In this document: one piece after another, positions 3,083 through 19,860 of the stretch
How positions within the stretch are numbered: the first letter of the stretch is position 1
Layout: each line of letters opens with the position of its first letter
DNA from: Sphingopyxis macrogoltabida
GTDB taxonomy: Bacteria; Pseudomonadota; Alphaproteobacteria; Sphingomonadales; Sphingomonadaceae
DNA: 19,860 bases
Direction: 5' to 3'
NCBI RefSeq assembly: GCF_001307295.1
Contig: NZ_CP012705.1
Span: forward strand, 1 to 19,860
Notes under the pieces: generated by a model
The model's database searches: none
What the model was told of the DNA's origin: nothing
Seen by the model: only the letters and a program-made list of their open reading frames with translations
Position numbers and translations under genes: made by a program

Positions 3083-3134
3083 CATGCTACATATATGTTG
3101 ACGGATTTCGGTTAGGCGCGCATACATGCTGCAT
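3083..3134. promoter_or_regulatory. Paired direct repeats before the HTH-NTPase gene (candidate operator)
   Basis: CATGCTACAT (3083-3092) and CATGCTGCAT (3125-3134) differ at one base and lie 42 bp apart, about four helical turns. A TTGACG (3098-3103) lies between them, with only a weak -10 match 17 bp on (CATACA, 3121-3126). The downstream gene starts with an XRE-type DNA-binding domain, so these could be its autoregulatory operators. This is inferred from position. Confidence 0.45.
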
Positions 3135-3148
3135 GAAGGAGATTGTGC

Positions 3149-5329
3149 ATGGGCGGTATTTCACATAGCGCGGTTCTCGCGCGCCTTAGAAGCGAGATCG
3201 GGGTAACGCAGGCGGCCTTGGCGACGGAGGCCGGCCTCGATCAAAGTCGGGTTTCCCGCATCGAAAAGGGGGAGGTGTCTTCCGAAGCGGAAGTCGAGAA
3301 GGTGCTCGATGCGCTGACGGCGCTCGGCTCTCCCCAGGCCCGGGCCTATAAAGAATTCATCGGCCGCGCGTGGGAGAACATCGCGCCGCCGAGCTTCTTC
3401 AACCCGCAGCGCGCATGCCTTGAAATAGCCGACGAGGCGCTTCGCGACATCGACACCTTCCTCGCCGATGAGAGCCGTCCCTGGCCGCTCCGCCGCCAGA
3501 TCGAGCGGCATAAGGACACCCTCATCAAGGGGGCGAACTACCTTCAGAAGATGAACCACAACATCGCCTTCATCGGGCCGATCGGCGTGGGAAAATCGAC
3601 AGGTCTTAGCTTCCTCTTCGACCTTCTCGTGCCGCCGACGCTGGCCTCCAAGCCGATCGACCGGCCCGTCCTCGAAACAGGGGCGGGCGGCACGACCATT
3701 TGCGAGGTTCATATCAAGCGCGGGCCGGAATTCGGCATCAGTTTGCTGCCGATGTCTGAAACCGAGCTGCGCGACCTGGTGGCCGACTTCTGCGCCTCGC
3801 GTTGGGCGGTGCTGAAGGGCGAGCTGAAGGAGTCAGCCGATAACGCCGGGGTGAGCCGCGAGCATGACCGGGCGATCCGGAATATGTCGGGCCTAACGCG
3901 TCGCCGCTCCACCGAGAACGGCAAGATCGTCTATTTCGATCCGGTGAGCGATCTGGTCGCCTCCTGCGCGAGCGAAGACGAGTTCCGCACGCGGGTCCTG
4001 GAGTTGATGAAGCTGCCCGAGCGCACTCAAAGGGAACTCTGGTACGACAGCGTGACGCGGCAGCACCCGATGGAATGGGTGATGAAGACCTTCCGCGAGG
4101 TAAACAACGGTCGTCTGGCCGACGTGTCGCTGCCGACGAGCATTGACCTGATCATTCCCGAGTTCGGCCGCAGCTTCGGCGAGCTGGAAATCAATGTCAT
4201 CGACACGAAGGGCGTCGATGATGTGGCCGTGCGCGAAGACCTGGACCTCCGCCTCAAGGACCCCCGCACCGCGGTCGTGTTCTGCACCCGCTTCAACGAC
4301 GCGCCGGGCGTGACGACGCGCTCCCTGCTGCAGCACATGCACGACACGTACTCGGAACCGGTGAATACGGGGAAAGTCTCGATCCTGGCGCTCCCGCGCA
4401 CCGAGGAAGCGCGGGCCATGAAGGACGACGCGGGCGAAGTCGCGATGGACGATGCCGAGGGATATGCCTTCAAGCAGATGCAGGTGGAGAACGAGCTGGC
4501 GGCCGAGGATCTGGCCGGCGTTCCCATGGTCTTTTACAACGTGCAGTCGGACGACGCGGCGCCGGTGCGCGGCGCGCTGTTCGACCAGCTGAACCGTATG
4601 CGCTCCACGGTCGAGGCCCGCCTGTTCGACCTGTGCGCCGCTGCCGACGAGGTGATGAAGAACCACGAGGCGCAAGCCCTCACGGCGGCAATGGAGGAAG
4701 TAGCCGAAAGGCTGAACTCCTTTCTTGATGCTCACCCGGCGCTCCCGGCCCGTGAGCGTCATGCTTATACGGAGGCGCTGACGACGATCGGCGGGGTGCG
4801 ATACGCCGCGACGCTGTGGGCGGCGACGCGCCGGAACGGCGAATATTCCGGGTTCAACATCATTCACAACATCGGGGTGGGCGCGGCGAAGGATGCGCGG
4901 CAGCGCAGCGATCGGTGGTTCTCGTCGCTGAAGGACTACATCGCCGTCATGAAAGGCGACGAGGGGCTGCAGCTGGCGGAGAAGACGATCAGTCAGATGG
5001 AGCAAAGCGCGATCGCAACGCGCACCGCATTCCTGGAAGCGGTGCAGCGGGCGGGGATGGAAGTCTATCGCGGCCCCCTCTCCAGCGCTTCGATCTGGAG
5101 TCAGTGCGCGGCCGAATGGGGTGCGGGACCGGGCTTCAAGGGCCGCGTCGCAGGCAACCTGAAAACGTGGTTCGAAGACCGGGCCGATCTGAAAGACAAG
5201 CTGGAGGAGATTACGAACGTCCTCTGGGATCAGCTCGTCATCGCGCCGATGCGCCGCCTGGTGGCGGAGAACGCGCCGGAAGCCGGGCTGGGTGGGAACG
5301 TGATCCCATTCCCGACGAAAGCTGCATAA
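3149..5329 (+). CDS. XRE helix-turn-helix fused to a dynamin-like P-loop NTPase
   Basis: A 726-residue two-part protein of unrecognised specific function. Residues 6-58 form an XRE-type HTH (RLRSEIGVTQAALATEAGLD, then SRVSRIEKGEV). A P-loop GPIGVGKST is at residues 143-151, a TT pair that could be switch I in GGTTICEV lies about 40 residues later, and a DTKG motif typical of GTPase G3 is at 352-355. No canonical NKxD guanine-specificity motif is obvious, so GTP versus ATP use is open. The long, mostly helical C-terminal half (about 450-700) recalls dynamin-like stalks. I chose ATG 3149 because AAGGAG at 3136-3141 is 7 bases upstream. The next gene starts 28 bases downstream and is surely co-transcribed. 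A DNA-binding head on a large GTPase-like body beside a DUF262 nuclease suggests a defence sensor/effector pair. Confidence 0.75.
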   Translation: MGGISHSAVLARLRSEIGVTQAALATEAGLDQSRVSRIEKGEVSSEAEVEKVLDALTALGSPQARAYKEFIGRAWENIAPPSFFNPQRACLEIADEALRDIDTFLADESRPWPLRRQIERHKDTLIKGANYLQKMNHNIAFIGPIGVGKSTGLSFLFDLLVPPTLASKPIDRPVLETGAGGTTICEVHIKRGPEFGISLLPMSETELRDLVADFCASRWAVLKGELKESADNAGVSREHDRAIRNMSGLTRRRSTENGKIVYFDPVSDLVASCASEDEFRTRVLELMKLPERTQRELWYDSVTRQHPMEWVMKTFREVNNGRLADVSLPTSIDLIIPEFGRSFGELEINVIDTKGVDDVAVREDLDLRLKDPRTAVVFCTRFNDAPGVTTRSLLQHMHDTYSEPVNTGKVSILALPRTEEARAMKDDAGEVAMDDAEGYAFKQMQVENELAAEDLAGVPMVFYNVQSDDAAPVRGALFDQLNRMRSTVEARLFDLCAAADEVMKNHEAQALTAAMEEVAERLNSFLDAHPALPARERHAYTEALTTIGGVRYAATLWAATRRNGEYSGFNIIHNIGVGAAKDARQRSDRWFSSLKDYIAVMKGDEGLQLAEKTISQMEQSAIATRTAFLEAVQRAGMEVYRGPLSSASIWSQCAAEWGAGPGFKGRVAGNLKTWFEDRADLKDKLEEITNVLWDQLVIAPMRRLVAENAPEAGLGGNVIPFPTKAA

Positions 5330-5357
5330 TAATCAACCACGAGGGGGCCTAAGAACC

Positions 5358-7265
5358 ATGGCGGGATCAACGTTCCAGACTAATCCGATCGACCTTCAAC
5401 GGCTGCTGGACGAATGCCATCGCGGCATCATCCAGCTGCCCGACTTTCAGCGGAGCTGGGTCTGGGACGAAGACCGCATCAAGAGCCTCATCGCTTCGAT
5501 CTCGCGGGCTTTCCCGGTCGGCGCGCTCATGTCGCTCGATACGGGGGGGCCTGTGAATTTCAAACCTCGCCCGGTCGAAGGCGCGCCGCCCGAGGCCCGG
5601 CAAATGGCGCCGCAATCCCTCCTGCTGGACGGCCAGCAGCGCATGACGTCCCTCTATCAGGTGGCGTTGCGGGGCAAGGTTGTCGAAACCGTCACCCCGA
5701 AGAAGAAGCGTGTCAAACGCTGGTTCTACATCGACATCCGCAAGGCTATCGACGAGCTGGCCGACCGCGAGGAGGCGGTCGTCGGCGTGCCGGAAGATCG
5801 CATGGAGCGCACGGATTTCGGCCGGGAGGTCACGCTCGACCTCTCGTCGCCGGAGAAGGAATACGCGGCGCTGATGTATCCGGTGTCGCAGGTGTTCGAT
5901 TGGGACAAGTGGCAAGACGGCTTCGACGACTATTGGGCCGGCGACGAGCACAAGGCGGTCCGCGAAGAATTCCGCGCCTTCAAGCGCCAGGTGCTCGAAA
6001 ACTTCAAATACTACCGCGTGCCGGTGATCGCGCTCGACCGCTCGACCTCGAAGGAAGCGGTCTGCGTCGTGTTCGAGAAGGTGAACACAGGCGGCAAGGC
6101 GCTCGACGCCTTCGAGCTGGTCACGGCCATGTATGCCGCCTCGGGGCATGAACTCCGCAAGGACTGGTATGGCGATGAAAGCACCAAGGGGCGCCATCGC
6201 CGCCTCGCCGACACGCTACGCCCCGCGGATTCCGACGCCGGCATCCTGGCGGGCGTGGGCAACACGGATTTCCTGCAGGCGGTGTCCCTGTTCTACACGC
6301 GCGACAAGCGGCGTGCGGCCGAGCAGGCGGGTAAAGAGGGCAAGGAGCTTCCGGCGGTGTCGGGCAACCGCCAGGCACTGCTCGATCTCCCGCTCGACGC
6401 CTATAAGCTCTATGAAGCGCAAGTGGAGCAGGGCTTTGTACGGGCCGCCAAGTTCCTGCACATGCTGCATATCTACCGCATTTTCGACCTGCCCTATCAG
6501 TCGCAGATTGTCCCCCTTGCGGCGATCCTCGCTGACATCGGCGACGCATGGGAGCACGAGGCCAATCGGTCCAAGCTGGTGCAATGGTACTGGAACGGCG
6601 TCTTCGGCGAACTCTACGGGTCGGCGGTCGAGACCCGCATCGCGCGCGATTTCATGGAGGTGCCACGCTGGCTGAAGGGCGGCCCGGCCCCTTCGACCGT
6701 CAGCGAAACGATGTTCCGGGCTGACCGCCTGAAAACGATGCGCATGCGACTGTCAGCCGCTTACAAGGGCGTGAACGCCCTACTGATGAAGGAGGGGGCG
6801 CAGGACTTCCGCTCCGGGCAGAGGTTCGATCACACCGTCTTCTTCGGCGAGAACGTCGACATACACCACATCTTCCCGCAGGACTGGTGCAAGGCGCGCG
6901 GCATCAAGCCGGCCGTCTTTGATAGCATCATCAACAAGACGCCGCTGTCCTACCGCACGAACAGGATCATCGGCGGCGTGGCGCCGTCCGAATATCTCGG
7001 GAAGCTGGAGAAGGGCAACAACGCCAACCCGCCGATCAGCAGCGAGAAGCTGGACGGCTATCTGGCATCGCACCTGATCGATCCGGCGATGCTCCGGGCC
7101 GATGCCTTCGAGGCCTTCATGGACGATCGGCAGAAGCGGCTGCTTGGCCTGATCGAGCAGGCGATGGGTAAGGCCGCCTACAAGGGCGACGTTCCGGAAG
7201 AGGGTGAGGATGTCGAGAGCGACGACGATACGGCCGAGGCCGAGCAGACGATCCCCTTGGCTTAA
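5358..7265 (+). CDS. DUF262 domain protein with C-terminal HNH-type motif (GmrSD-like)
   Basis: A 635-residue protein. The N-terminal DUF262 signature is clear: LPDFQRSWVWDEDRIKSLI near residues 22-40 and LLLDGQQRMTSLYQ with DGQQR at 91-95. DUF262 is a ParB/Srx-like fold that binds or hydrolyses nucleotides in GmrS-type restriction proteins. The C-terminal part carries DIHHIFPQDWC (His503, His504), followed by an Asn-rich segment (INKTPLSYRTNRIIGG), as in the HNH nuclease half of GmrD/DUF1524 proteins. GmrSD enzymes cut glucosylated phage DNA; here the two halves are fused, as is common. The AGGGGG-like ribosome site is 12-17 bases upstream. With the preceding HTH-NTPase it forms a two-gene unit. 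Family assignment is firm; the modified-DNA target is inference. Confidence 0.85.
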   Translation: MAGSTFQTNPIDLQRLLDECHRGIIQLPDFQRSWVWDEDRIKSLIASISRAFPVGALMSLDTGGPVNFKPRPVEGAPPEARQMAPQSLLLDGQQRMTSLYQVALRGKVVETVTPKKKRVKRWFYIDIRKAIDELADREEAVVGVPEDRMERTDFGREVTLDLSSPEKEYAALMYPVSQVFDWDKWQDGFDDYWAGDEHKAVREEFRAFKRQVLENFKYYRVPVIALDRSTSKEAVCVVFEKVNTGGKALDAFELVTAMYAASGHELRKDWYGDESTKGRHRRLADTLRPADSDAGILAGVGNTDFLQAVSLFYTRDKRRAAEQAGKEGKELPAVSGNRQALLDLPLDAYKLYEAQVEQGFVRAAKFLHMLHIYRIFDLPYQSQIVPLAAILADIGDAWEHEANRSKLVQWYWNGVFGELYGSAVETRIARDFMEVPRWLKGGPAPSTVSETMFRADRLKTMRMRLSAAYKGVNALLMKEGAQDFRSGQRFDHTVFFGENVDIHHIFPQDWCKARGIKPAVFDSIINKTPLSYRTNRIIGGVAPSEYLGKLEKGNNANPPISSEKLDGYLASHLIDPAMLRADAFEAFMDDRQKRLLGLIEQAMGKAAYKGDVPEEGEDVESDDDTAEAEQTIPLA

Positions 7266-7365: not shown

Positions 7366-7656
7366 ATGAAGATCAGGAACGTGATCCATAAGGGATTGCG
7401 ACGCTTCATCGAGACCGATGATGCTAGCGGGCTGCAGCCCGCCGTCGTGGCCAAAATCCGGCGCATGGTCTCCTTTCTCCAGGACATGGAGAAGGAGGAC
7501 GAGCTGCGCACGGTGCCGAGCTGGAAGGCCCATCAGCTGACCGGCGACCGCAAAGGCACCTGGAGCCTGTTCGTGACCAAGAACTGGCGGATGACGTTCC
7601 GGATCGATCGGGGCGAGATCGAGATCGTCGACCTCGACTATGAAGATTACCACTAG
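7366..7656 (+). CDS. higB: HigB-type toxin (RelE superfamily mRNA interferase)
   Basis: A 96-residue protein matching the HigB/plasmid maintenance killer family: the start IRNVIHKGLRRFIETDD, a middle VPSWKAHQLTGDRKGTWSL and an ending NWRMTFRIDRGEIEIVDLDY are characteristic. HigB toxins cut mRNA on the ribosome; several basic residues (Arg, Lys, His) in the C-terminal half fit that chemistry. Toxin-first order, with the antitoxin 9 bases downstream, is the hallmark of higBA. On a plasmid it acts as post-segregational killing and may also respond to phage. Its own perfect -35 promoter lies immediately upstream. Confidence 0.92.
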   Translation: MKIRNVIHKGLRRFIETDDASGLQPAVVAKIRRMVSFLQDMEKEDELRTVPSWKAHQLTGDRKGTWSLFVTKNWRMTFRIDRGEIEIVDLDYEDYH

Positions 7657-7998: not shown

Positions 7999-8032
7999 CG
8001 CGAATGCTCCTTCCTTCTTGCAAGTGCACCTC

Positions 8033-8659
8033 ATGAGTTTAATCAAGTCCAGAGAGCGAGTGAACGATCACGGTGAGGTATTCACTCCCCCGTGGCTCGT
8101 CGAAAAGATGCTCGATATCGTCAAAGGCGAGACGGAGCGCATCGACGCGCGCTTTCTTGAACCTGCCTGCGGCAGCGGCAATTTCCTGGTGCCGATCCTT
8201 CAGCGCAAGCTTGCGGCAGTGCAACTGAAATTCGGTAAGTCTGAATTCGAGCGGCGCCACTACGCGCTGTTTGGCCTTATGTGCTGCTACGGTATCGAGC
8301 TGCTGCCCGACAATATCGCCGAATGCCGCGCGAACATGCTGGAGGTCTTTGCTGACTATCTCGGCGTCGGCCAGCAGGACGAGGCCTATCGCGCCGCCTC
8401 CTTCGTGCTGACGCTCAATCTCGTCCATGGCGATGCCATGACCATGCGCGACACAGCGGGCGCGCCGATCAGCGTCGTGGAGTGGGGCTATTTAGGAAAG
8501 GGCAAGTTCCAGAGGCGGGATTTCCGGCTCGATGTGCTCACCGGAATGGCAAGTTTCAGCGCCGAGGACTCGCTCTTCGCCAGCCTCGGGAAGCACGAAA
8601 TCTTCACGCCCACATCATCATATCCGCCGATGTCGCTTGGCGACCTCGCGGCAATGTGA
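8033..8659 (+). CDS. N6-adenine DNA methylase-like protein, short, without visible NPPY
   Basis: A 208-residue protein with the N-terminal signature of gamma-class N6-adenine methylases: HGEVFTPPWLVEKMLDIV (motif X, about residues 12-30), then FLEPACGSGNFL (motif I, S-adenosylmethionine binding, Glu43-Pro-Ala-Cys-Gly-Ser-Gly). Motif IV (NPPY), which holds the catalytic centre, is absent and the protein ends soon after. It may be a partner that helps the next methylase, a degenerate duplicate, or a subunit whose catalytic half is supplied in trans. The ATG at 8033 is preferred to an upstream TTG; no strong ribosome site is visible. It lies 34 bases after higA and 21 bases before the full methylase, so it probably belongs to the same transcript as the genes that follow. 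Confidence 0.75.
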   Translation: MSLIKSRERVNDHGEVFTPPWLVEKMLDIVKGETERIDARFLEPACGSGNFLVPILQRKLAAVQLKFGKSEFERRHYALFGLMCCYGIELLPDNIAECRANMLEVFADYLGVGQQDEAYRAASFVLTLNLVHGDAMTMRDTAGAPISVVEWGYLGKGKFQRRDFRLDVLTGMASFSAEDSLFASLGKHEIFTPTSSYPPMSLGDLAAM

Positions 8660-8680: not shown

Positions 8681-10261
8681 ATGAACGAACAGGCGGGATT
8701 CACATTGCGGGGGCGCAATCCCGACGTTTTGACCTGCATCGCCAACCTGTCGAACGACGAGGTGTTTACGCCGCCGGAGTTCGCCAACCGGATGCTGGAC
8801 ACACTGGCCGAGGCGTGGGCAACGGCCAATGACGGGGCGAGCATATGGGGAAATCGAAATGTTCGATTCCTCGACCCCTTCACCAAGTCTGGCGTCTTCC
8901 TGCGCGAGATCACCACGCGGCTGATTGCTGGGCTGGCCGATGAAATCCCAGAGCTGCAGGAGCGGGTCGATCATATCCTGACCCGCCAGGTTTTTGGCAT
9001 CGGCATCACTAAACTCACTAGCCTGTTGGCGCGACGCAGCCTTTATTGCTCGAAGTATGCCAACGGCGAACATTCGGTCGCCAGCAGCTTCAAGACGGAA
9101 GTCGGTAACATCTGGTTTGAGCGGATCGAGCACACCTGGAACGGAGGGAAGTGCTCGTTCTGCGGTGCGCCCCGCTCCCTCTTTGACCGCGACAAAGGCC
9201 TGGAGAACCACGCCTATGCTCTCATTCACACCAACAACATAAAAGCTCGCATTGGAGAGCTGTTCGGAGCCGACATGCAGTTCGATGTACTTATCGGAAA
9301 CCCTCCCTATCAGATGACCGGCGGGGCTGGCGGAACAAGTGATTCATCTATCTATCATCTGTTCGTTGAGCAGGCGATGGCGCTGGAGCCAAGATATATT
9401 TCGATGGTAATTCCATCTCGCTGGATGGCAGGTGGCCGTGGGATGGATGATTTTCGTCAGGCTTTCCTGAGCGGCGGTCATCTGAAGGAATTAGTTGACT
9501 TTCCCGCGTCGGCGGAAGTTTTCCCTGGTGTCGAAATCAAGGCCGGCATCTGCTATTTCCTATGGGATAGGGCACATAAGGGGAAGTGCAATGTCACGAC
9601 GTTTCGCGGCGGCGAAGCCATCGGTCCTATAGCACGCAAACTTGATGAGTATGACATCTTTGTTCGTGATGGACGAGCGCTATCAATTCTTCATAAGGTT
9701 CTTTCACACGATGAGGTTCCTATAAACAGCATTTTAAGCCGAGATACCGCCTTTGGCCTTGCCTCAAATTTTGCTCAATTTCGCGCGACTGAGCGCGATG
9801 GCGATGTGGCACTTTTTTTCATTCAGAGGATGAAGAGAGGCGTCGGGTACGTAGCTCGTGATACCATAAGGAAGAGTATTCCTCTCATCGACAAGTGGAA
9901 GCTTCTCGTACCGGAAGCTTATAATGGTGGCGACGCGGTTCCACATCAAATACTTGGCAAGCCTGTTGTTGCCCCACCTAACTCAGTGTGCACTCAGTCA
10001 TTTCTTGTATTTAGCGTTGATACTCAACAAGAGGCTGAGAGTGTGCGATCGTACTACTCCACGCGCTTGTTTAGGTTTCTGGTGTCTCAACGAAAAATAA
10101 CTCAGCATGCGCTGAACTCAACTTACTCATGGGTCCCAATGCAGACATGGGACACGACTTGGACGGATGAGATGCTGTACGAGAAATATGGCATTTCAGC
10201 GGACGAGCAGGCTTACATCGAGTCTCAAGTTCGCGCGATGGATGTCGGCGATGGCGAGTAA
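8681..10261 (+). CDS. Eco57I-like class N6-adenine DNA methyltransferase
   Basis: A 526-residue modification subunit. DEVFTPPEFANRMLDTLAE near residue 27 is motif X. FLDPFTKSGVFL around Asp65 is a diverged motif I. FDVLIGNPPYQMTGG carries the catalytic NPPY at residues 207-210. A CSFCGAP Cys pair lies between motifs I and IV. The C-terminal half should be the target recognition domain; its DNA is visibly AT-richer (for example 24 of 60 G+C at 9721-9780) than the flanking genes. It methylates adenine in host DNA to protect it from the adjacent helicase/nuclease. The ATG follows an AGGGGGA ribosome site. Its stop overlaps the start of the next gene by 11 bases, indicating coupled synthesis of the modification and restriction components. 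Confidence 0.85.
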   Translation: MNEQAGFTLRGRNPDVLTCIANLSNDEVFTPPEFANRMLDTLAEAWATANDGASIWGNRNVRFLDPFTKSGVFLREITTRLIAGLADEIPELQERVDHILTRQVFGIGITKLTSLLARRSLYCSKYANGEHSVASSFKTEVGNIWFERIEHTWNGGKCSFCGAPRSLFDRDKGLENHAYALIHTNNIKARIGELFGADMQFDVLIGNPPYQMTGGAGGTSDSSIYHLFVEQAMALEPRYISMVIPSRWMAGGRGMDDFRQAFLSGGHLKELVDFPASAEVFPGVEIKAGICYFLWDRAHKGKCNVTTFRGGEAIGPIARKLDEYDIFVRDGRALSILHKVLSHDEVPINSILSRDTAFGLASNFAQFRATERDGDVALFFIQRMKRGVGYVARDTIRKSIPLIDKWKLLVPEAYNGGDAVPHQILGKPVVAPPNSVCTQSFLVFSVDTQQEAESVRSYYSTRLFRFLVSQRKITQHALNSTYSWVPMQTWDTTWTDEMLYEKYGISADEQAYIESQVRAMDVGDGE

Positions 10262-12809
10262 GCCCGCAATTGAGGAAATCCTCACCCCAAAGCCGGAAGC
10301 ACGCCCCCGCATCTACGCCTATTCGATCGCATCCGACACACACAGCGGCCTTCTCAAGGTCGGTCAGACCACTCGCGACGTGACGCAGCGTGTCTCGGAG
10401 CAGCTCAAGACGGCCGCGATCACCAATTACACGATCGAGCTGGACGAAAACGGGGAGCGTGATGATGGCGGCATCATCACCGATCACGCAGTGCGTGAAG
10501 CCCTAAAGCGAAAGGGTTTTGCCAATCCGCAGCTCGAATGGATGCGCTGCACGGTGGCCGACGTGAAAACCGTGCTCGCAGAGCTGCGCTCAGGCCAGCA
10601 ATTCACCGGCACTCACCATGAGGATTTCCCGCCGCGCAAAGAGCAGGCGGAAGCGGTCGATCAGACCTACGCCTATTTCCGCTCCCGCTGGGAACAGGAC
10701 CCCAAGGCGGTGCCGCGCTTCCTCTGGAACGCGAAGATGCGGTTCGGCAAGACGTTCACGTCCTACCAGCTCGCCAAGAAGCTTGGAGCGAAGCGGGTAC
10801 TGGTCCTGACGTTCAAGCCAGCGGTCGAGGATGCGTGGCAGGCCGACCTGGAAAACCATCGGGATTTCGATGGCTGGCAGTATCTCTCCCGCAAATCGGG
10901 GCGCGACCCGAGCCAGATTGATCCCGAAAAGCCCGTGGTATTCTTCGGCTCTTTCCAGGACCTCCTTGGCCGCGACAAGGCCGGAAATATCAAGGCCCGC
11001 CATGAGTGGGTGCATACGACGAATTGGGATTTGGTCGTGTTCGACGAATACCATTTCGGCGCCTGGCGGGAGACGGCCAAGGAGCTGTTCGAGGGCGAGG
11101 AAGAGGCAGTCGCCAAGAAGGAGACCAGCCTTGAGTATGCAGCAGACCTCGAAGACGTGAACGAGGATCTCGGCGTCCTCTCAGAGAGCGAGGCCGAGTT
11201 CCTGCCGATCACGACACGGGCTTACCTCTATCTCTCGGGAACGCCTTTCAAGGCCCTGGCCACCGGCGAGTTCATCGAGGAGCAGATTTTCAACTGGACC
11301 TACACCGACGAGCAGAAGGCCAAGGCCGCGTTTGCGGCCAAAAATCCCGGTAAGCGGAACCCCTACGGGGCGTTGCCGCAGATGCGCCTGCTGACCTACC
11401 AGATGCCTGACGAGCTGCTGGCAATCGCCAGCGCAGGCGAGTTCGACGAGTTCGACCTGAACGCCTTTTTCAGTGCAACAGGTACGGGCGACGCGGCGGA
11501 GTTCAAGTTCAAGAACGATGTCCAGAAGTGGCTCGACATCATCCGCGGCGGCTATGCGCCGCAGACGGTCAAGAGCCTCAAGGCCGGCACCAGGCCGCCA
11601 TTCCCCTATTCGGACGTGCGGCTGCTGCCCTATCTGCAACACTCCTTCTGGTTTTTGCCGAACGTGGCCGCCTGCCACGCCATGGCTAACCTGCTCAAGG
11701 AGCGGCAGAACACCTTCTGGCACGATTACAACGTGATCGTGTCCGCCGGTGCGACGGCAGGGATCGGCCTCGACGCGCTGCCGCCGGTGCGCGAAGCGAT
11801 CGGCAGCGGCTTTGACACCAAGACGATCACTCTGTCCTGCGGCAAGCTCACCACCGGCGTCACCGTCGCGCAGTGGTCGTCGATCCTGATGTTGCGGAAC
11901 CTTAAGTCGCCGGAAACCTACTTTCAGGCGGCGTTCCGGGTGCAATCGCCATGGTCGATCAAGAACCCCAACGGGGATGATCCGAACGAGGAAGAGGTCC
12001 TCAAGCCGGTCTGCTTCGTATTCGATTTCGCCCCGACGCGCGCGCTGCGCCAGCTCTCGGAATACGGCATTGGCCTTTCGCCTGGCGAGGCCAATCCCGA
12101 GAATGCTGTCCGCGAGCTGGTCTCGTTCCTCCCTGTGCTCGCCTATGACGGCGCGAACATGACACAGATCGATGCCGGCGGTATCCTCGATATCGCCATG
12201 GCTGGGACCTCGGCCACGCTGCTCGCGCGCAAGTGGGAATCGGCGTTGCTGGTCAATGTCGACAACGACACGCTCCGTCGTGTTCTGGACAATCCCGAAG
12301 CAATGGCCGCCGTCGAGCGGATCGAAGGATGGCGGTCTCTCGGGGACAACATCATCGAGACGATCATCAACAAGAGCGAGACGGTTAAAGACCTTAAAGC
12401 CAAGGCGAAGGAAAAGGGGGGCGAGCTGTCTGCGAAAGAGAAGAAGGAGCTGACGGACGAGGAGAAGGAGTACAAATCGAAGCGCAAGCTGGTGCAGGAG
12501 AAGCTGATCAAGTTTGCCACACGCATTCCGGCCTTCATGTACCTGACGGATTTTCGCGAAAATACGCTTCAAGATGTCATCACCAAATTGGAGCCCGAGC
12601 TGTTCCAATCGGTAACGGGCCTGACGGTCGCGGACTTTCACCTGCTCGTGCGGCTTAAGGTGTTCAACACGGAGCGCATGAACGAAGCAGTGTTCGCCTT
12701 CCGGCGATATGAGGACGCCTCGCTCCGGTATACCGGCATCGAAAGCCACGAAGGGCTGACGCATTATGGCCTTTACGACACCGTGGTTGCAAAGGACGAG
12801 GCAGCCTGA
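10251..12809 (+). CDS. GIY-YIG-like domain fused to SF2 helicase (restriction subunit)
   Basis: An 852-residue protein, probably the restriction subunit acting with the overlapping methylase. Residues 20-110 (RIYAYSI, then LLKVGQTTRDVTQRV) match the pattern of T5orf172/Mug113-type GIY-YIG nucleases, with AYS and KVG in place of GIY and YIG and Arg47 in the expected place. Helicase motifs follow: Walker A NAKMRFGKT (160-168), DEYH Walker B (265-268), SGTPF motif III (329-333), and a late TTGVTV then YFQAAFRVQSPW matching motifs V and VI. A Lys/Glu-rich stretch near 700-750 is probably coiled coil. I chose ATG 10251 because an earlier in-frame start would lie deep in the methylase gene. The helicase family is certain; DNA cleavage by the N-terminal domain is inference. 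Confidence 0.82.
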   Translation: MASKPAIEEILTPKPEARPRIYAYSIASDTHSGLLKVGQTTRDVTQRVSEQLKTAAITNYTIELDENGERDDGGIITDHAVREALKRKGFANPQLEWMRCTVADVKTVLAELRSGQQFTGTHHEDFPPRKEQAEAVDQTYAYFRSRWEQDPKAVPRFLWNAKMRFGKTFTSYQLAKKLGAKRVLVLTFKPAVEDAWQADLENHRDFDGWQYLSRKSGRDPSQIDPEKPVVFFGSFQDLLGRDKAGNIKARHEWVHTTNWDLVVFDEYHFGAWRETAKELFEGEEEAVAKKETSLEYAADLEDVNEDLGVLSESEAEFLPITTRAYLYLSGTPFKALATGEFIEEQIFNWTYTDEQKAKAAFAAKNPGKRNPYGALPQMRLLTYQMPDELLAIASAGEFDEFDLNAFFSATGTGDAAEFKFKNDVQKWLDIIRGGYAPQTVKSLKAGTRPPFPYSDVRLLPYLQHSFWFLPNVAACHAMANLLKERQNTFWHDYNVIVSAGATAGIGLDALPPVREAIGSGFDTKTITLSCGKLTTGVTVAQWSSILMLRNLKSPETYFQAAFRVQSPWSIKNPNGDDPNEEEVLKPVCFVFDFAPTRALRQLSEYGIGLSPGEANPENAVRELVSFLPVLAYDGANMTQIDAGGILDIAMAGTSATLLARKWESALLVNVDNDTLRRVLDNPEAMAAVERIEGWRSLGDNIIETIINKSETVKDLKAKAKEKGGELSAKEKKELTDEEKEYKSKRKLVQEKLIKFATRIPAFMYLTDFRENTLQDVITKLEPELFQSVTGLTVADFHLLVRLKVFNTERMNEAVFAFRRYEDASLRYTGIESHEGLTHYGLYDTVVAKDEAA

Positions 12810-12897: not shown

Positions 12898-14022
12898 ATG
12901 GAAGTTGACAAGTCCCTTGTATCTGCGCTGATCGAAGCCGCCATGTCGGCGAATTACACCGGAGTCCGCCGTATCGGCGGCCAGATCGCCAAAAGCCTAG
13001 CGGAACAAGACGACCTGGAGGGCGCGAAGGCCCTCCAGTCGCTGCTCCGGAAGCGTGGCGTCCCCCTTCAAGCTTCGGGCTATGCCGAGGCGCTTCCGCG
13101 TGACGCAGGATCGCGACTACCCCTCATTGAAGAGGGGCAATGGCCGACAACGCCGATCATGCTCGGGGGGGAGGCTGGCCAGACCATCTCGCAGTTCATC
13201 GAGGATGCGCAGCATATCAGCTTGCTGGCCGAGAAGGGCGTTTCCGCGCGCCTTGGCCTGTTGCTTTACGGCCCGCCAGGAACGGGGAAAACCCTGCTGG
13301 CGGGACATATCGCGGCGTCGCTGCAACGGCCGCTCTACGTCGCCCGTCTTGATTCCCTGATCTCGTCTCGACTTGGCGAAACCGCCAAAAATGTCCGGGG
13401 GATATTCGATTTCGTGCCTGCTCGTAACGCGGTGCTGTTCCTCGACGAAATGGACGCCATTGCAAAGCTTCGCGATGATCGGAACGAGCTGGGCGAGCTA
13501 AAGCGTGTCGTGAACACCGTTCTTCAGGGGCTCGATTCCCTGACGGACGACGTGGTGACCGTCGGCGCGACCAACCATCCACACCTCCTCGATCCCGCCA
13601 TTTGGCGGCGCTTTCCCTACAAGGTGAAGCTGGATCTTCCCGATGAGGACGTGCGCGCCAGCATGTGGGAGCATTTCCTGTTTCAGGAAGATGCCCTTCA
13701 CAAAGACAATGCGCGCTTGCTGGCGCGGGTTTCAGAAGGGCTGAACGGCGCGGATATCGAGAATATCGCGCTCGCGTCACGGCGGCGGGCGATCCTCAGT
13801 GACCGCGAGGTCGATCTGGCGCGTATCCTTCTCGCGGTTAGCGGATCAAAAACCGGCAGCCCACGCCTGCTCGACAGCCGGGACCTGGAAACGGCGGATA
13901 AGAAGGTTCTGACCCGCCTGCTCCACGAAAAGGGCGGCATCGGCCAAGCCGAGATTGGCAAGATCGTCGGTGTCAGTCGTCAGATGGTGCACCGCTATCT
14001 GAAGGAGGCGATCGATGGTTGA
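12898..14022 (+). CDS. ietA: AAA+ ATPase, IetA-like
   Basis: A 374-residue ATPase with an N-terminal helical region (1-90), an AAA+ core and a C-terminal DNA-binding-like tail. Walker A GPPGTGKT is at 125-132, Walker B LFLDEMD with Asp183-Glu184, sensor 1 GATN with Asn226, then RRFPYKVKLDLP, the arginine-finger/FtsH-like region. The tail QAEIGKIVGVSRQMVHRYLK reads as a helix-turn-helix. It sits 8 bases overlapped with a subtilisin-like protease, the arrangement of IetAS, where the ATPase counteracts or controls the protease. That pair was described as a stability/incompatibility module on the Ti plasmid and later as an anti-phage system. ATG 12892 (two residues longer) is possible; I chose 12898 because the promoter geometry puts the transcript start there. 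Confidence 0.8.
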   Translation: MEVDKSLVSALIEAAMSANYTGVRRIGGQIAKSLAEQDDLEGAKALQSLLRKRGVPLQASGYAEALPRDAGSRLPLIEEGQWPTTPIMLGGEAGQTISQFIEDAQHISLLAEKGVSARLGLLLYGPPGTGKTLLAGHIAASLQRPLYVARLDSLISSRLGETAKNVRGIFDFVPARNAVLFLDEMDAIAKLRDDRNELGELKRVVNTVLQGLDSLTDDVVTVGATNHPHLLDPAIWRRFPYKVKLDLPDEDVRASMWEHFLFQEDALHKDNARLLARVSEGLNGADIENIALASRRRAILSDREVDLARILLAVSGSKTGSPRLLDSRDLETADKKVLTRLLHEKGGIGQAEIGKIVGVSRQMVHRYLKEAIDG

Positions 14023-15757
14023 TACTCCACGGCGGCCGCTGCTGAACCCCGTTCTGCGCTTCATCAAGGACCCCAAACCGGAAGGGGTGTCCGGCGGCGG
14101 AAAGAACGCGAGCAGCATCAAGACGGACCGCCTGCCCGAACAGCGGCGCGTGCTGTCTCGACAGTTCCTTGCCCTGTCCGAAGAGACGGCGCAGCGCCCC
14201 CGGTTCGATGGACGCGTTGTGCTCTACGCGGCGATGTTCGACGACTCCCTTGCGCCCAGCTACACGCCCTCGGACCTCTTTAGCCCGACGCGGGATGCGC
14301 GGCTCATTGCTCCTTATCGGTCGGGATACCTCGTCGAAGTGGCGGCGAACCAGCTTCCCGCTTTTGCGCGCCTCGTGCAGCGCACGGACCTGGCCAAGGA
14401 ACAGGTGGACATCTCTCGCATCGAAGCCGTCCGCTTTTTCGAGAACGAGGATACCACCGGAGCCACGTCTCTGGACGAGATTTGGGATGCTGCGCCGGAA
14501 ACCAAGGGAGGCAGGGCCTTCACAGTCTGGCTCATGCCTCTGCGCGGCCGCGATGCCTCAGAAGAACTGATCGAGCGCTTTGCTGCGCTCCGCGATGGCA
14601 CGATCACACCGCCGCCGCCTCTTCTGGCGGGCGTCGATCTCGACGCCGAGAGCGATGTTCCGGTCGTGATGCGGCGCAGCCTGCGTGCGGCGGGCGCGAG
14701 CGGCGACCGCATTAATCTCGCGATGCGGGCTTATCGCCTGCGCCGTCGGGCGCGCACAACGGTTCTCGTTGCGTCGCGGGCCGCGCTTGGCCAGCTTGTC
14801 GCGTCCGGCACCGTATTCCGTATCGAGCCGGTACAGCCGATAAGCTCCACCTCGCCCGGGGAGGGTCGGGAGCCGGACCGCCCTTTACCGGAAAACTTGA
14901 CGATGCTGCCAATCGTCGGCGTCGTTGATGGCGGCATGACGGCGGGGTCCTACCGTCATGCAGAGGCATGGCGCGCGCCGCCGCTCGTCGCTGATGGCGC
15001 GGCCGATACCCAGCATGGAAATTGGGTAACCTCTCTCGTGGTGCAGGGTCATGACTGGAACAACAATCTCACCCTGCCGCCGCTCTACTGCCAGGTCGGC
15101 ACGGCCCAAGCCCTCGCAAAGCAAGCGTCGGGGGTCTTCGTCGACCCTCAGGATTTTATCGCCTATGTGGATGGAGTGATGGCAGCAAACCCGGACACGC
15201 GGGTTTGGAATTTCTCCCTCAATCAGGCCTACGCCTGCGATCTCGAAGCCGTGAGCGCGCTCGGGCATGATATTGCCTTGCTGGCGCGCAAGCACCGCGT
15301 GCTGCCCATCATCTCCGTAGGCAACAAGCCGGGCTCCCGGCTTCAGCCGCCCGCCGATTGCGAAGCGGCGATCACAGTCGGAGGCCGGAGTCACGACGGC
15401 AACGGCGATCCGGCGGGGGAATGTCCCGTGAGCCTGTGTGGGCCAGGGCCGTCCAGTATGCTCAAGCCCGACCTCTCGCATTTTTCGCACGTCCGCGTCT
15501 TGGGCGGGCATCTCATTCGGGGGTCGAGCTTCGCAACGTCCCTCACGTCGCCGCTCGCTGCACACACGATGGAGCGGGTGCGCGACGCCTCTCCGGACCT
15601 TGTGAAGGCTCTGCTGCTGCACAACTCGGACGGGATGAACTTCGATCCGGCCATGGGCTTTGGCACCCCGTCGGCCGCCTCGCTGCCCTGGGAGTGCCGA
15701 CCTGGCTTTGTTACGCTGCAATGGCGCGCGACGCTTCGCCCTGGCGCAGCCTATTAG
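14015..15757 (+). CDS. ietS: S8 subtilisin-like serine protease, IetS-like, C-terminus cut off by transposon
   Basis: 580 residues remain. The N-terminal 290 residues are a non-catalytic region; the S8 core follows with Asp305 (GVVDGG), His334 (QHGNWV) and Ser505 (RGSSFATSL), plus the oxyanion-region Asn in ISVGNKPGS. In IetAS the protease is the toxic partner of the AAA+ ATPase. The ATG at 14015 has AAGGAGG 6 bases upstream and overlaps ietA by 8 bases. The frame ends RPGAAY then TAG at 15755-15757, and the G of that stop is the first base of the transposon. The stop is therefore created by the insertion and the original C-terminal region continues beyond the element, outside this window. 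The catalytic domain is intact on paper; whether the truncated protein folds or is toxic is unknown. Confidence 0.82.
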   Translation: MVDTPRRPLLNPVLRFIKDPKPEGVSGGGKNASSIKTDRLPEQRRVLSRQFLALSEETAQRPRFDGRVVLYAAMFDDSLAPSYTPSDLFSPTRDARLIAPYRSGYLVEVAANQLPAFARLVQRTDLAKEQVDISRIEAVRFFENEDTTGATSLDEIWDAAPETKGGRAFTVWLMPLRGRDASEELIERFAALRDGTITPPPPLLAGVDLDAESDVPVVMRRSLRAAGASGDRINLAMRAYRLRRRARTTVLVASRAALGQLVASGTVFRIEPVQPISSTSPGEGREPDRPLPENLTMLPIVGVVDGGMTAGSYRHAEAWRAPPLVADGAADTQHGNWVTSLVVQGHDWNNNLTLPPLYCQVGTAQALAKQASGVFVDPQDFIAYVDGVMAANPDTRVWNFSLNQAYACDLEAVSALGHDIALLARKHRVLPIISVGNKPGSRLQPPADCEAAITVGGRSHDGNGDPAGECPVSLCGPGPSSMLKPDLSHFSHVRVLGGHLIRGSSFATSLTSPLAAHTMERVRDASPDLVKALLLHNSDGMNFDPAMGFGTPSAASLPWECRPGFVTLQWRATLRPGAAY

Positions 15758-15801
15758 GCCCAGTCGGCCCGAAGCTGCGATTTTGGTCATCTTGGAGAAC
15801 A
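15757..15801 (+). repeat. Left terminal inverted repeat of the transposon
   Basis: 45 bp starting GGCCCAGTCGGCCCGAAGCT, matching the reverse complement of 19816-19860 with three mismatches (at positions 31, 35 and 39 of the repeat). It would be bound by the transposase at each end. About 38 bp is usual for the family; the match here continues slightly further. Confidence 0.93.
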
Positions 15802-15878
15802 CGTCGGGAACGGGCTGGTTGTTGTTGACGATCGCCCATGCGAGGAACGACGTTCCGCTCCGATAAGGGAGCGGCGTT

Positions 15879-18788
15879 ATGAGCCTTGGCGTTTCGAGTG
15901 GGGATCTGATCGGCTCCTGGAGCCTGAGTTTTTCGGACATCGCGTTCGTGACCGGCAAAGCGGAGACGGCACGACTGGGATTGGCGGTTCAGCTTAGATT
16001 TTTCGCCGGGCATGGCTTCTTTGTGCCGGATCATGCGTCGATACCCTCCGACGGTGTCTTGTATCTGGCGGAGCAACTTGGTCTCGATGCCAAATCCGTG
16101 AACCACTATGATTTTTCCGGGCGCACCGCCCGCCGGCATTGCGCGGAGATTTTGCGGCATCTCGGGTTCCGCCGTATGACGCAGACGGATCGCAGGGCGT
16201 TGTCGAGGTGGATTTCCGACGATCTTTGTGCGGGCGGGCAGCCGATCAATGCCATGCTCGAGCATGTTTTCCTGTGGTGCCGCGACCGCCGTATCTATGG
16301 GCCGTCGCGCAAGGAGCTGGAACGCCTCGTCCGTTCGCAACGACACCTCTATCTGGAGGCCCTGTTGGCCCGAGTCCGCGATCGGCTTGCGCCGGATGCG
16401 GTCGCCTTGCTGGAAGCCTCGCTCGCCGATCCCGATGGCCCGACCGGCTTCAACACGATGAAGGGGGATGCAGGTCAGGCGACGCTCGAAAACATTCTTG
16501 GCGTGACCGCCAAACTCGCCTTTATCCAACGGCTTGCTCTTCCCCGAGATTTCCTATCGGTCACGGGCAAGGCATGGGTCGATCAGATCGTTCGCCGGGT
16601 TGCCGGCGAGAAAGCCTCGGAGATGCGCCGGCATGTACCGGCGCGCCAGCTCGGGCTCTATGCCGTTTATCTGATGGCGCGGGAAGCTCAGCTTACGGAT
16701 GCGATGGTCGACCTGCTGATCGAGACGGTCCATAAGATCGGATCGCGCTCGAAACGCAAGGTGGTGGGCGATATCGCGAAAGACATCGAGCGGGTCTATG
16801 GCAAGGAGCGACTCCTGGTCGAGATTGCCAGCGCTTCGATCGACGATCCATCCGGGCGCATCTGCGATGTCATTTTCCCAATCGCCGGCAAGGACAAACT
16901 GGCGGCGATCATCAAGGAAAGCCAGGCAAAGGGCGCCTTGGATCGGCGGATCTACAAGGTGATGCGGAGGTCATGGGCCAATCATTATCGCCGTATGCTG
17001 CCAAGCCTGCTTTCGGCACTGGAGTTCCGGTCGAACAACGCCGTGTGGCGTCCGGTGCTGGCGGCCCTGGACTGGATCAGAAGCAAAGTGGATGATGGAT
17101 GCCGCTACGTGCCGCCGCACGCAGTGCCGGTCGACGAGGTCATTCCGGCGAGATGGCGCAGTTCCGTCATTGATGAAGAGGGGCGCGTAAACCGGATCAG
17201 TTATGAGCTTTGTGTCCTCGCGCAACTGCGCGATCGCATCCGTTCTAAGGAAATCTGGGTTGTCGGGGCGGACCGATACCGCAATCCCGATGACGATCTT
17301 CCCAAGGACTTCGATGCGCGGCGAGAAGCATATTACACAGGATTGAACCTGACGGCGGATGCGCGTGCATTTTCAAGCGCCATCCGGGAAGAGCTTGCTC
17401 AGGAACTGTTGCTCCTCAATGCCAATATTCCCCGGAACGACAAGGTTCGGCTGCTGTGGCGCGGCGAGAACCGTATATCTCTCACCCCGTTCAAACCCTT
17501 GCCCGAACCCAGGGGTCTCGCCTCGATCAAGACCGAGATCGGCCAACGCTGGCCGATGACCGGGCTGCTCGACGTACTGAAGGAGGCTGCCCTTGATACG
17601 GGACTTCTCGAAGCGTTCGAAACATCGGCCTCGCGTGTTGCACTGCCGAAAACCGCGCTGGATCAACGTCTCCTGCTATGCCTCTACGGCCTGGGAACGA
17701 ATGCCGGGCTCAAGCGGATCGCCGGCGCCACCCCCGATGTCAGCTATGAAGAGCTGCTGCATGTCCATCGCCGCTTCGTTCATGCCGCGGCGCTCAAGGA
17801 GGCGTGTGCCAGGGTTGCGAATGCGACCCTGGCAATCCGCAATGCTGCAGTCTGGGGGGACGCCGGCACGGCCTGTGCGTCAGATTCCACAAAGTTCGGA
17901 GCCTGGGATCGCAACCTGATGACGGAATGGCATGCGCGTTATGGTGGACGGGGCGTCATGATCTACTGGCATGTCGAACGACGCGCGACATGCGTCTATT
18001 CCCAGCTCAAGCGCTGCTCTTCCTCCGAGGTCGCCTCCATGATCGAGGGCGTGCTGCGCCATTGCACCGACATGGAAATCCAGCGACAATATGTTGATAG
18101 TCATGGCCAAAGCGCGGTTGGCTTTGCATTTTGCCGGCTTCTCGGATTTGAGCTTGCACCCCGCCTGAAAGCGATCGCTCGCCAGAAGCTGGCTCTTCCC
18201 GATGTCGGCATGCGAACGCGGCTTCCCCACTTGCAGCCGATCCTCTCCAGTCCGATCAACTGGGATGAGATCGAGCAGCAATATGACGAGATGGTCAAAT
18301 ATGCAGCCGCGATGCAGACAAAAACCGCCGACCCGGAGGCGATCCTGCGCCGGTTTAGCCGCTCCGAGGTGATGCACCCGACCTACAAGGCGTTGAGTGA
18401 GCTGGGCCGCGCGGTCAAGACGATCTTCCTGTGCCGGTATCTGCGCGAGGAGTCCTTCCGCCGCGAAATTCATGAAGGCCTGAATGTCGTTGAAAACTGG
18501 AACAGTGCCAATGGGTTCGTTTTCTTCGGCAAGGGCGGCGAGATCGCCACTAACCGCATCGATGAGCAGCAGCTCTCGGTCCTGGCGCTACATTTGCTGC
18601 AAGCGTCGCTTGTCTATGTGAACACCCGAATGCTTCAGAGCGTGCTGGTGGAACCGAAATGGACGGGCCGGATGACGCCGGATGATTATCGCGGCCTCAC
18701 ACCGCTGATTTACAGCCACGTCAATCCTTATGGCCGCTTCGACCTCGATCTGAATAGCCGGATCGATTTTGGGCGGCTTGCTGCCTGA
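15879..18788 (+). CDS. tnpA: Tn3-family transposase TnpA
   Basis: A 969-residue transposase, normal full length for the family, that carries out replicative transposition through a cointegrate. The N-terminal part ([13 protein letters not shown], then [11 protein letters not shown]) is the DNA-binding region that reads the terminal repeats. The catalytic D-D-E residues are Asp669 ([10 protein letters not shown]), Asp740 (QYVDSHGQS) and Glu872 ([13 protein letters not shown]). The ATG at 15879 follows a purine-rich AAGGGAG ribosome site at 15865-15871. No frameshift or internal stop is present, so the enzyme should be active and the insertion may be recent. It is oriented from the left repeat inward, in the same direction as tnpR. 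Confidence 0.95.
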
Positions 18789-18930
18789 CCGGGGCCTTTC
18801 CGCTCGCACCATTTGGGTGCACCCGAACGTGACGATCGGAAGTGACATATACGACATGTCACAAAAGGGTGGTTCCGTCACCAATGTTACTGTACGAGGG
18901 CAAAGCCACCCTAATGTGACGGATTTGCCC
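18789..18930. promoter_or_regulatory. res site (resolution region) between tnpA and tnpR
   Basis: The gap between tnpA and tnpR is rich in short inverted repeats, as expected for resolvase-binding subsites. GTGACAT (18842-18848) pairs with ATGTCAC (18856-18862), and TCCGTCAC (18874-18881) pairs with GTGACGGA (18916-18923). The shared GTGAC/GTCAC half-site recurs throughout. Resolvase bound here would resolve cointegrates and probably repress its own gene. The subsite layout is inferred. Confidence 0.65.
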
Positions 18931-19797
18931 ATGACCCGCGTCGGCTACGCCCGCGTCAGCACCATCGACCAGGATCTCGACATCCAGGTTGCCCGGTTGA
19001 AGGCAGCGGGCTGTGAAATCCTCCGCTCCGAAACAGGCTCGGGCGCATCGCGCACTGGACGCACGGAGCTTGAGACGATCATGCAGTTCCTGCGCGCCGA
19101 TGACGAACTCGTCGTCCTGCGTCTCGATCGGCTCGGTCGCTCCACACGCGATGTTCTCAATCTGGTTCATGAACTCGACCAGAAGGGAGCCTCATTGCGG
19201 GTGCTTGAGCCGGAGGTGACGACGGCCGGAAGCATGGGGCGGATGGTGATCACCATTCTGGGCATGGTCGCGGACATGGAACTGACGTTCATCAAGGACC
19301 GGCAGCGCGCCGGGATCGAGGCGGCGCGCGCCGAAGGCGTCTACAAAGGCCGGAAGAAAAACATCGATGACGATGAAATCCGACGCCGGATCACCGCCGG
19401 CGCGAGCAAGGCCAGCGTCGCGCGCGACCTCAAGATCTCAAGAATGACCGTCTATCGGGCGCTTGACGTCATTCCTTCAAGGATCGGGCTGCCGGAAAAG
19501 CCGCCTTCTGTCACCATCGCCCTGCATCTGACCATCGAGAACTTCAACAAGCATGGTCGTGGCAGAAAGCCCGCTCGCGAGCGCATTGAGGCGATGCTGG
19601 AGCGGGATTACCAGATGCAAAAGACCGGGAACTGCGATTACACGCTGACCGTCGCCTATGATCAGGGTGCCGATGGCGTCAGCCTCGATGATGAGATCGC
19701 ATCTCTCCAGACAGAGATGTTCAACATCGCAGAGAGCTACAGGTGCTCGATCGAGACCGATGTTTACGAGATTGGAGGACAAGAGCGAGCCTGGTAG
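18931..19797 (+). CDS. tnpR: Serine resolvase TnpR with a 100-residue C-terminal extension
   Basis: A 288-residue site-specific recombinase that resolves cointegrates at the upstream res. The N-terminal catalytic domain is classical: VGYARVSTIDQDLDIQ with catalytic Ser10, then LVVLRLDRLGRSTRDV and FIKDRQRAGIEAARAEG. A DNA-binding helix-turn-helix (ASKASVARDLKISRMTVYRAL) ends near residue 185, where resolvases of this size normally stop. About 100 more residues follow (SVTIALHLTIENFNKHG to GGQERAW), in frame, ending 18 bases before the right terminal repeat. I do not recognise this extra domain. I chose ATG 18931 because the GYARVS core begins there; in-frame upstream starts would run through res. 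Confidence 0.88.
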   Translation: MTRVGYARVSTIDQDLDIQVARLKAAGCEILRSETGSGASRTGRTELETIMQFLRADDELVVLRLDRLGRSTRDVLNLVHELDQKGASLRVLEPEVTTAGSMGRMVITILGMVADMELTFIKDRQRAGIEAARAEGVYKGRKKNIDDDEIRRRITAGASKASVARDLKISRMTVYRALDVIPSRIGLPEKPPSVTIALHLTIENFNKHGRGRKPARERIEAMLERDYQMQKTGNCDYTLTVAYDQGADGVSLDDEIASLQTEMFNIAESYRCSIETDVYEIGGQERAW

Positions 19798-19815
19798 ATC
19801 GCCATGTTCAATCTT

Positions 19816-19860
19816 TGTTCTTCAACATGGCCAAAATCGCAGCTTCGGGCCGACTGGGCC
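19816..19860 (-). repeat. Right terminal inverted repeat of the transposon
   Basis: Reverse complement of the left repeat with 42 of 45 matches. It runs exactly to the last base of the window, so the outer boundary and the flanking target sequence are not visible. Confidence 0.93.

Follow-up and report, generated by a model that had tools for sequence, protein, structure and literature searches.

An XRE-dynamin fusion protein with a predicted operator at its own promoter, found beside varied defence genes

Eleos/LeoA are bacterial dynamin-like proteins with anti-phage roles. Another member of the dynamin superfamily, DynA, protects against phages (PMC8844932; this and the other articles given by PMC number are cited from excerpts of their text). 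Among regulators, about half (48%) of the BrxR homologues co-localise with diverse defence systems (PMC9122601), and RptR, which is encoded close to type I restriction-modification (R-M) genes, represses a defence-island promoter via direct repeats with a 6-bp palindrome (PMC12255303). The present analysis concerns P1, a predicted DNA-binding dynamin-like protein encoded next to a DUF262-HNH protein, P2, in a stretch of 19,860 nucleotides from Sphingopyxis macrogoltabida, which is called the window hereafter. With moderate confidence, P1 is regarded as an exchangeable, autoregulated XRE-dynamin switch for defence operons.

Like the BrxR-family WYL regulators and CapW, which bind DNA beside many unrelated defence systems (PMC9122601, PMC9122588), P1 is predicted to bind DNA and has many unrelated defence systems as neighbours; unlike them, it has an XRE-type helix-turn-helix (HTH), no WYL domain by Pfam, and a dynamin-fold GTPase of about 600 residues as presumed sensor. 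With RptR it shares the place of a predicted regulator at a defence-locus promoter with a palindromic site, but the two differ in operator and in size, RptR being described as small (PMC12255303) and P1 being a large fusion to a GTPase. The likeness to DynA lies in the dynamin-superfamily fold, assigned to P1 by model, but P1 is predicted to be soluble, includes a domain for binding DNA and is associated with systems that target DNA. Neither an XRE-dynamin nor an HTH-GTPase/DUF262 pair was among the open-licence PMC matches listed, an absence of little weight, and PMC11888443, on one regulator of many defences, makes no mention of GTPase, helix-turn-helix, dynamin or P-loop. P1 is therefore best called a defence-associated regulator with a dynamin sensor/effector, where the kind of regulator is known and the attached dynamin module differs.

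Features and distribution of P1

P1 (3149-5329) and P2 (5358-7265) lie on the + strand with 28 bp between them, and the coordinates and spacing of these two co-directional genes were given correctly in an earlier note made from the letters alone. The features of P1 are:

3149..5329, + strand: P1, XRE-dynamin fusion of 726 amino acids (open reading frame, Pfam, alignment, structure model)
3170..3328, + strand: XRE helix-turn-helix domain (Pfam PF13560/PF01381)
3575..3598, + strand: P-loop GPIGVGKS, residues 143-150 (G143, G148 and K149 invariant in 58 rows)
4202..4213, + strand: G3 motif DTKG, residues 352-355 (D352 and G355 invariant in 58 rows)
4556..5269, + strand: helical stalk, residues 470-707 (long helices at 470-528, 571-603 and 605-645 in the model)

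Both sequence hallmarks of the dynamin superfamily, a P-loop of the form GxxxxGK[ST] and a DxxG motif, are present, and the predicted model has a dynamin-type G domain with a helical stalk. By this model, P1 joins an XRE DNA-binding domain to a GTPase of dynamin fold; the HTH and dynamin-like NTPase domains assigned in the earlier note were confirmed by Pfam, by the invariant motifs and by the model. The G4 motif of the superfamily, [TN]KxD, was not seen by eye in P1, and its expected place reads ALPR. No hydrophobic paddle or membrane segment of the BDLP/DynA type was found in P1, where the highest 19-residue hydropathy is 1.37, at the P-loop (family maxima: median 1.33, highest 1.74), and the protein is predicted to be soluble. 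Pfam gave HTH models only and no WYL match. In PADLOC-DB 2.0.0 (2023), P1 had only weak matches, nearly all in HTH parts (best HTH_VI, 1.9e-4), and none of the PDC profiles of PADLOC matched it.

A P1 query matched 120 of 385 genomes; judged by coordinates, full-length matches occurred only in G000, the host genome, and G410, and the remaining ones were short and nearly all within the HTH. P1 was found in 17 plasmid records, no match was found among 50,697 phage records, and three loci on viral contigs with a P1 match were kept out of the locus count. The loci compared came from genome contigs (48), seven opened records of the 17 plasmids (L004-L009, L101), one genome match (L059) and the window. 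Removal of duplicates left 54, and the table of strands and gaps comprises 52, without L024 (P1 interrupted) and L026 (contig end). Neighbouring genes were called mechanically as longest open frames. In the close clade, P1 proteins are 53-85% identical to that of the window.

The predicted operator

A feature missing from the earlier note is a palindrome of about 20 bp (consensus ATGCTGCATATATGCAGCAT) which lies upstream of P1 on its promoter and is common to the close-clade loci. In the window, the predicted promoter TTGACG-17-CATACA (3098-3126) has the best operator over its -35 and a weaker copy over its -10 element:

3084..3103, + strand: predicted operator ATGCTACATATATGTTGACG (leave-one-out score 20.4; -65 from the P1 start; overlaps the -35 element)
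3098..3103, + strand: predicted -35 element TTGACG, 17 nt from CATACA
3115..3134, + strand: second, half-conserved operator copy over the -10 region (score 8.5; fits the right half ATGCTGCAT by eye)
3121..3126, + strand: predicted -10 element CATACA (3/6 to TATAAT)

Scores are from a position weight matrix (PWM) for which each of 22 close-clade loci supplied the best site among the 150 bp preceding P1. For the leave-one-out scan, each locus and three near-kin sets were removed in turn and the entire locus (6.8-19.8 kb) was searched. An operator at the own promoter, as in defence-associated autoregulated repressors, was found from sequence in 22 of 22 loci, with the top site of the entire locus at most 120 bp upstream of P1; this test is not fully independent, because the matrix was still trained on other kin and the loci scanned had also supplied the consensus. 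The dyad GCATA/TATGC occurs in 13 of 25 upstream regions, and in 50 shuffles the most frequent dyad, whatever its sequence, came to no more than 2. In 18 of the 22 loci, the -35 core TTGAC falls within a 20-nt stretch that ends 10 nt short of the operator centre, as against 57 of 4400 random stretches of these loci, and the -10 element partnering it falls on the palindrome in close-clade loci. A strict test for perfect palindromes was positive for 9/25 P1 upstream regions and for 21/214 other genes of the same loci (p 0.001), for 7/22 and 20/180, respectively, in the close clade only (p 0.015), and for 0/3 of the HTH-less copies (L053, L054, L056). More distant P1 relatives have other palindromes, namely TGAATATATTCA in L006, L037 and L042 and AGAAACGTTTCT in L036 and L047.

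Strong sites lie at the promoter of P1 itself and only weaker ones elsewhere. Above a PWM score of 12, for which 1.6 sites are expected by chance over the locus set, the other sites were at L010 17199, L017 7584 and window 9339, plus five that overlap or adjoin the P1 operator. A site inside P2 (window 6462) has a counterpart at the corresponding coding position of L010 (11568) and seems to be there by chance. The L017 site (7584-7603; PWM 16.9) precedes, by about 40 bp, a divergent gene that encodes 905 amino acids and may be a second target of P1; in the PDB, its product matched helicase IV only, and weakly (E 2.2e-4). In the host genome, the operator pattern with two mismatches was found at 12 places, each counted on both strands, and the backward control at 4. 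Two of the 12 are the P1 promoter (contigs C5 and C6), two are inside P2 (both contigs) and eight lie elsewhere; on these counts of sites, a regulon elsewhere in the host genome was set aside.

Taken from sequence, the P1 operator is well supported. Autoregulation of P1 is likely because of the operator scans, the overlap with the -35 element, the palindrome tests and the habit of XRE regulators, which commonly control their own expression by way of palindromes ahead of their reading frame (PMC12565409).

Neighbours of P1 and the DUF262 partner

P1 is frequently found with defence systems, and often without any such neighbour. A defence-type gene is the immediate neighbour in at least 19 of 54 loci, a raw count and a lower bound, because only part of the neighbours was tested; a same-strand downstream defence gene, including DUF262, occurs in 14 of 54, within 150 bp in nine of these 14. 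Gabija loci give the best sequence evidence for a real linkage of P1 to a partner. In L012, L014, L018 and L024, P1 is followed on the same strand by GajA and then by a GajB-type helicase gene, with PADLOC E values of 3.6e-235 to 2.3e-241 for GajA in the three loci tested and 1.2e-190 for GajB in L018; the Gabija genes of L014 and the remaining GajB genes were assigned by clustering. The unit diverges together (identity 85-89% for P1 and 79-87% for GajA, gaps of about 25-102 bp). The contigs are titled Rhodospirillaceae, Steroidobacteraceae, Alphaproteobacteria and Verrucomicrobiae, i.e. alpha- and gammaproteobacteria and a verrucomicrobium, and binning errors are possible in these taxa, because all are metagenome-assembled genomes. 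In L024 (5743-9941), a gene of 507 amino acids splits P1 into an N-terminal part and the rest, and the Gabija genes that follow seem intact. Upstream of P1, a further Gabija pair, of another lineage, is present in L020 (GajA about 50% identical).

Other genes directly downstream of P1 on the same strand are HsdM-S-R in L017 (by Pfam) and L020 (by clustering), PtuA of Septu in L006 (PADLOC 3.7e-165, 238 bp), PDC-M01A in L055 (PADLOC 4.6e-140, 276 bp), a type IIG R-M gene in L034 (PADLOC 1.5e-266) and PD-Lambda-5_B in L037 (1e-89, 267 bp). In L016 (2942-8001), brxA-brxB-brxC are divergent from P1, and the P1 operator lies inside the common 199-bp intergenic region, which might be the kind of place for a BREX regulator. 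A ZacB-like gene adjoins P1 in L045 (4.7e-20), HerA and then SIR2 are convergent with it in L030, and a dGTPase gene is divergent from it in L013; the dGTPase family also includes housekeeping members. HTH-less P1 homologues were found near type I R-M genes in L053, L054 and L056, with HsdS before the copy in L054 and HsdR 209 bp after it in L056. That of Vibrio metoecus (L053, 23-13395) has type I R-M genes on one side and tniQ/cas8-5f on the other, which places it in or beside a type I-F CRISPR-associated transposon. On the tree, at least five changes are needed among six partner labels, which is the trivial minimum and by itself no demonstration of repeated switching.

The features of P2, the partner in the window, are:

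5358..7265, + strand: P2, GmrSD-family (BrxU-like) DUF262-HNH protein of 635 amino acids
5397..6134, + strand: GmrSD_N (DUF262, ParB-like) domain
5628..5642, + strand: DGQQR motif (invariant in 24/24 aligned rows)
6750..7112, + strand: HNH nuclease domain

P2 matches DUF262/GmrSD_N in Pfam with 97.6 bits against 33.2 and has, as GmrSD proteins do, DGQQR in this domain and a C-terminal HNH nuclease domain. It is a GmrSD-family (BrxU-like) restriction protein and as such a known enzyme type, in agreement with the DUF262 protein with HNH-type ending read in the earlier note from the letters. P2 is 16% identical to BrxU, and PF07510 has no match in it. Its best PADLOC profiles are PDC-M55C (9.7e-25) and HEC-05 (1.3e-19), which at their best-scoring stretches reach over no more than 13-128 and 9-59 of P2, respectively; the PDC-M55/HEC-05 candidates are unlike the window pair in that P1 matches no PDC profile.

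Both genes together had been proposed as a candidate undescribed defence pair. The domains, the defence context drawn from the island and the absence of a profile uniting both genes stood, as P1 plus P2 matched no one named system in the PADLOC release used (P1 with weak matches only). The fixed pair did not stand, since the neighbourhood survey suggested in the earlier note found the two genes rarely adjoining elsewhere. A DUF262 gene of the P2 kind follows P1 in 3/54 loci (window, L004, L010), all in the window's own clade; the paired rows fall inside a five-row clade with support of 100 (window, L010, L004, L011, P0042). At other P2-relative loci, a P1 relative was found in 0/39; these are 6 genome loci (1.5-kb flanks), 5 opened plasmids of 10 other records and 28 viral contigs, some near-duplicates, and exclude both copies of the window itself as well as L101, which nearly duplicates L004 together with its DUF262 partner. 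In L011, with a P1 85% identical to that of the window, no P2 match was found in the locus and a different gene follows P1 after 19 bp. On these three results, an obligate P1-P2 pair was rejected as a general rule. The gene in P2's place in L011 (10192-10914) is uncharacterised and of about 240 amino acids, and neither Pfam nor PADLOC matched its mechanical frame of 276 amino acids. In L052, a remote DUF262 gene lies on the opposite strand, three places from P1.

P1 and P2 are separated by 28 bp in the window, 19 bp in L004 and 282 bp in L010, and the identity to L004 and L010 is 83 and 85% for P1 and 85 and 87% for P2. Relatives of P2 have other company: in L105 (2034-10775) and L100 (2932-11705), they are flanked by a helicase-like gene of 1022 amino acids and a type III methyltransferase gene, apparently a conserved multi-gene arrangement, which in L105 begins with a WYL gene and in L100 has a gene of 271 amino acids in between. 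In L097, a P2 relative lies near or after DrmB.

The window is an exact match to the complete contig C6 of its assembly, and contig C5 (30,496 bases) contains all 19,860 bases and an extra 10.6 kb, which begins exactly where a transposon ends. This Tn3-family transposon (15757-19860; inverted repeats 15757-15801 and 19816-19860) truncates IetS (14015-15757); on C5, the element has a TATTA target duplication, and past it lies a further coding-like stretch missing from C6. C6 appears to be either a deletion derivative formed next to the transposon or an artefact of assembly. Sphingomonad plasmids hold near relatives of parts of the window, and no single record covering 80% of it was found. Two frames (8018-8659 and 8681-10261) match one and the same part of the methyltransferase profile PDLC03630, and the 213-amino acid frame may therefore be a partial paralogue; together with 10254-12806 (T5orf172-helicase), they resemble a split type IIG R-M protein (PDLC03626).

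How the readings compare

As an exchangeable switch, P1 would bind through its XRE domain, presumably as a dimer, to the palindrome on the -35/-10 elements of its own promoter and keep the P1(-partner) operon low. An infection cue would change its nucleotide state or oligomerisation and pull it off the operator, and release would raise P1 and whichever defence system is on the same transcript. On this plasmid, the presumably co-transcribed partner P2, whose family is shown, would cleave modified phage DNA; elsewhere, the partner would be Gabija, type I R-M, Septu, type IIG R-M or a divergent BREX. Operon co-regulation would explain the tight partners. Because many P1 copies have no partner, the dynamin part is probably an effector too, like other dynamins in defence; solo copies of P1, and the copies without HTH that lie among type I R-M genes, likewise suggest a direct action of the GTPase. 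More tentatively, P1 may be a DNA-tethered dynamin that left membranes and became a transcription switch; infection would be read from its oligomeric state or bound nucleotide, and interchangeable defence operons would then be released, with horizontal transfer coupling the switch to Gabija, Septu, BREX, type I/IIG R-M and GmrSD.

Several observations weigh against P1 as such a switch. The operator margin in the window is thin (20.4 versus 20.1 for the coding site inside P2), the -10 elements match TATAAT at 3-4 of 6 positions only, and a stricter promoter scan did not list the P1 promoter of the window. Upstream of the HTH-less copy in L054, dyads with wider gaps occur, none of them found by the strict test. 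The downstream gene is on P1's strand in 30/52 loci, so that orientation is not strongly biased overall, and within 150 bp in 19/52, and many P1 copies therefore have no operon to switch. Co-transcription is not assured in L017 and L020, because of an inverted repeat between P1 and hsdM, or in L010, because of a hairpin in the 282-bp gap; either may break the transcript. The 19 of 54 loci with a defence neighbour are a raw count, PADLOC matched 0/10 neighbour proteins from seven P1 loci, and other batches of neighbours had 6/10, 8/10, 6/10, 2/10 and 3/10 without match (E limits differ). The HTH-less homologues in type I R-M loci indicate that the GTPase can persist without a regulator role.

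The switch is nevertheless ranked first and a stand-alone effector second. As the latter, P1 would be an anti-phage dynamin, possibly of the abortive-infection kind, that merely autoregulates via XRE, and the adjoining defence genes would be island neighbours and not targets. This is a serious, if lesser, possibility: it fits the 22/52 loci without a co-directional downstream gene, the concentration of strong operator sites at P1's own promoter, the persistence of HTH-less homologues among type I R-M genes and the action of DynA against phages (PMC8844932). However, the tight, co-directional and co-diverging P1-Gabija units and the DUF262 gaps of 19-28 bp (L004, window) point to more than loose neighbours. 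In McrBC, McrB powers or licenses McrC, and P1 might do likewise for the DUF262-HNH nuclease in an obligate two-component system. The short gaps (28 and 19 bp), the similar divergence of both proteins in L004 and L010 and the DUF262 protein SspE, which couples recognition to cleavage by GTP hydrolysis (PMC13251355), would agree with this, but it is improbable given P2 relatives without P1 at 39/39 loci, e.g. in the helicase-like/type III methyltransferase order or after DrmB, the P1 of L011 without P2, and the proposed NTPase site that DUF262 proteins have of their own, DGQQR (PMC4619093). Least probable of all is a plasmid or mobile-element maintenance regulator that travels with defence cargo by chance and is not a defence protein; P1 is present in 17 plasmid records and has an integrase-type cluster nearby in six loci (one member checked), but some copies are on megabase-scale scaffolds (L023, L046) and the immediate neighbours are defence genes of at least six unrelated kinds.

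How defence is quieted and switched on is less understood than attack (PMC9122601, PMC12255303), and the shared defence controllers found described are WYL proteins and one small repressor. If the switch reading is true, an XRE-fused dynamin whose operator is conserved and whose partners are exchangeable would add a new class to these controllers and would give dynamin an unusual DNA-linked role, and the P1 system offers a directly testable operator and GTPase mutant.

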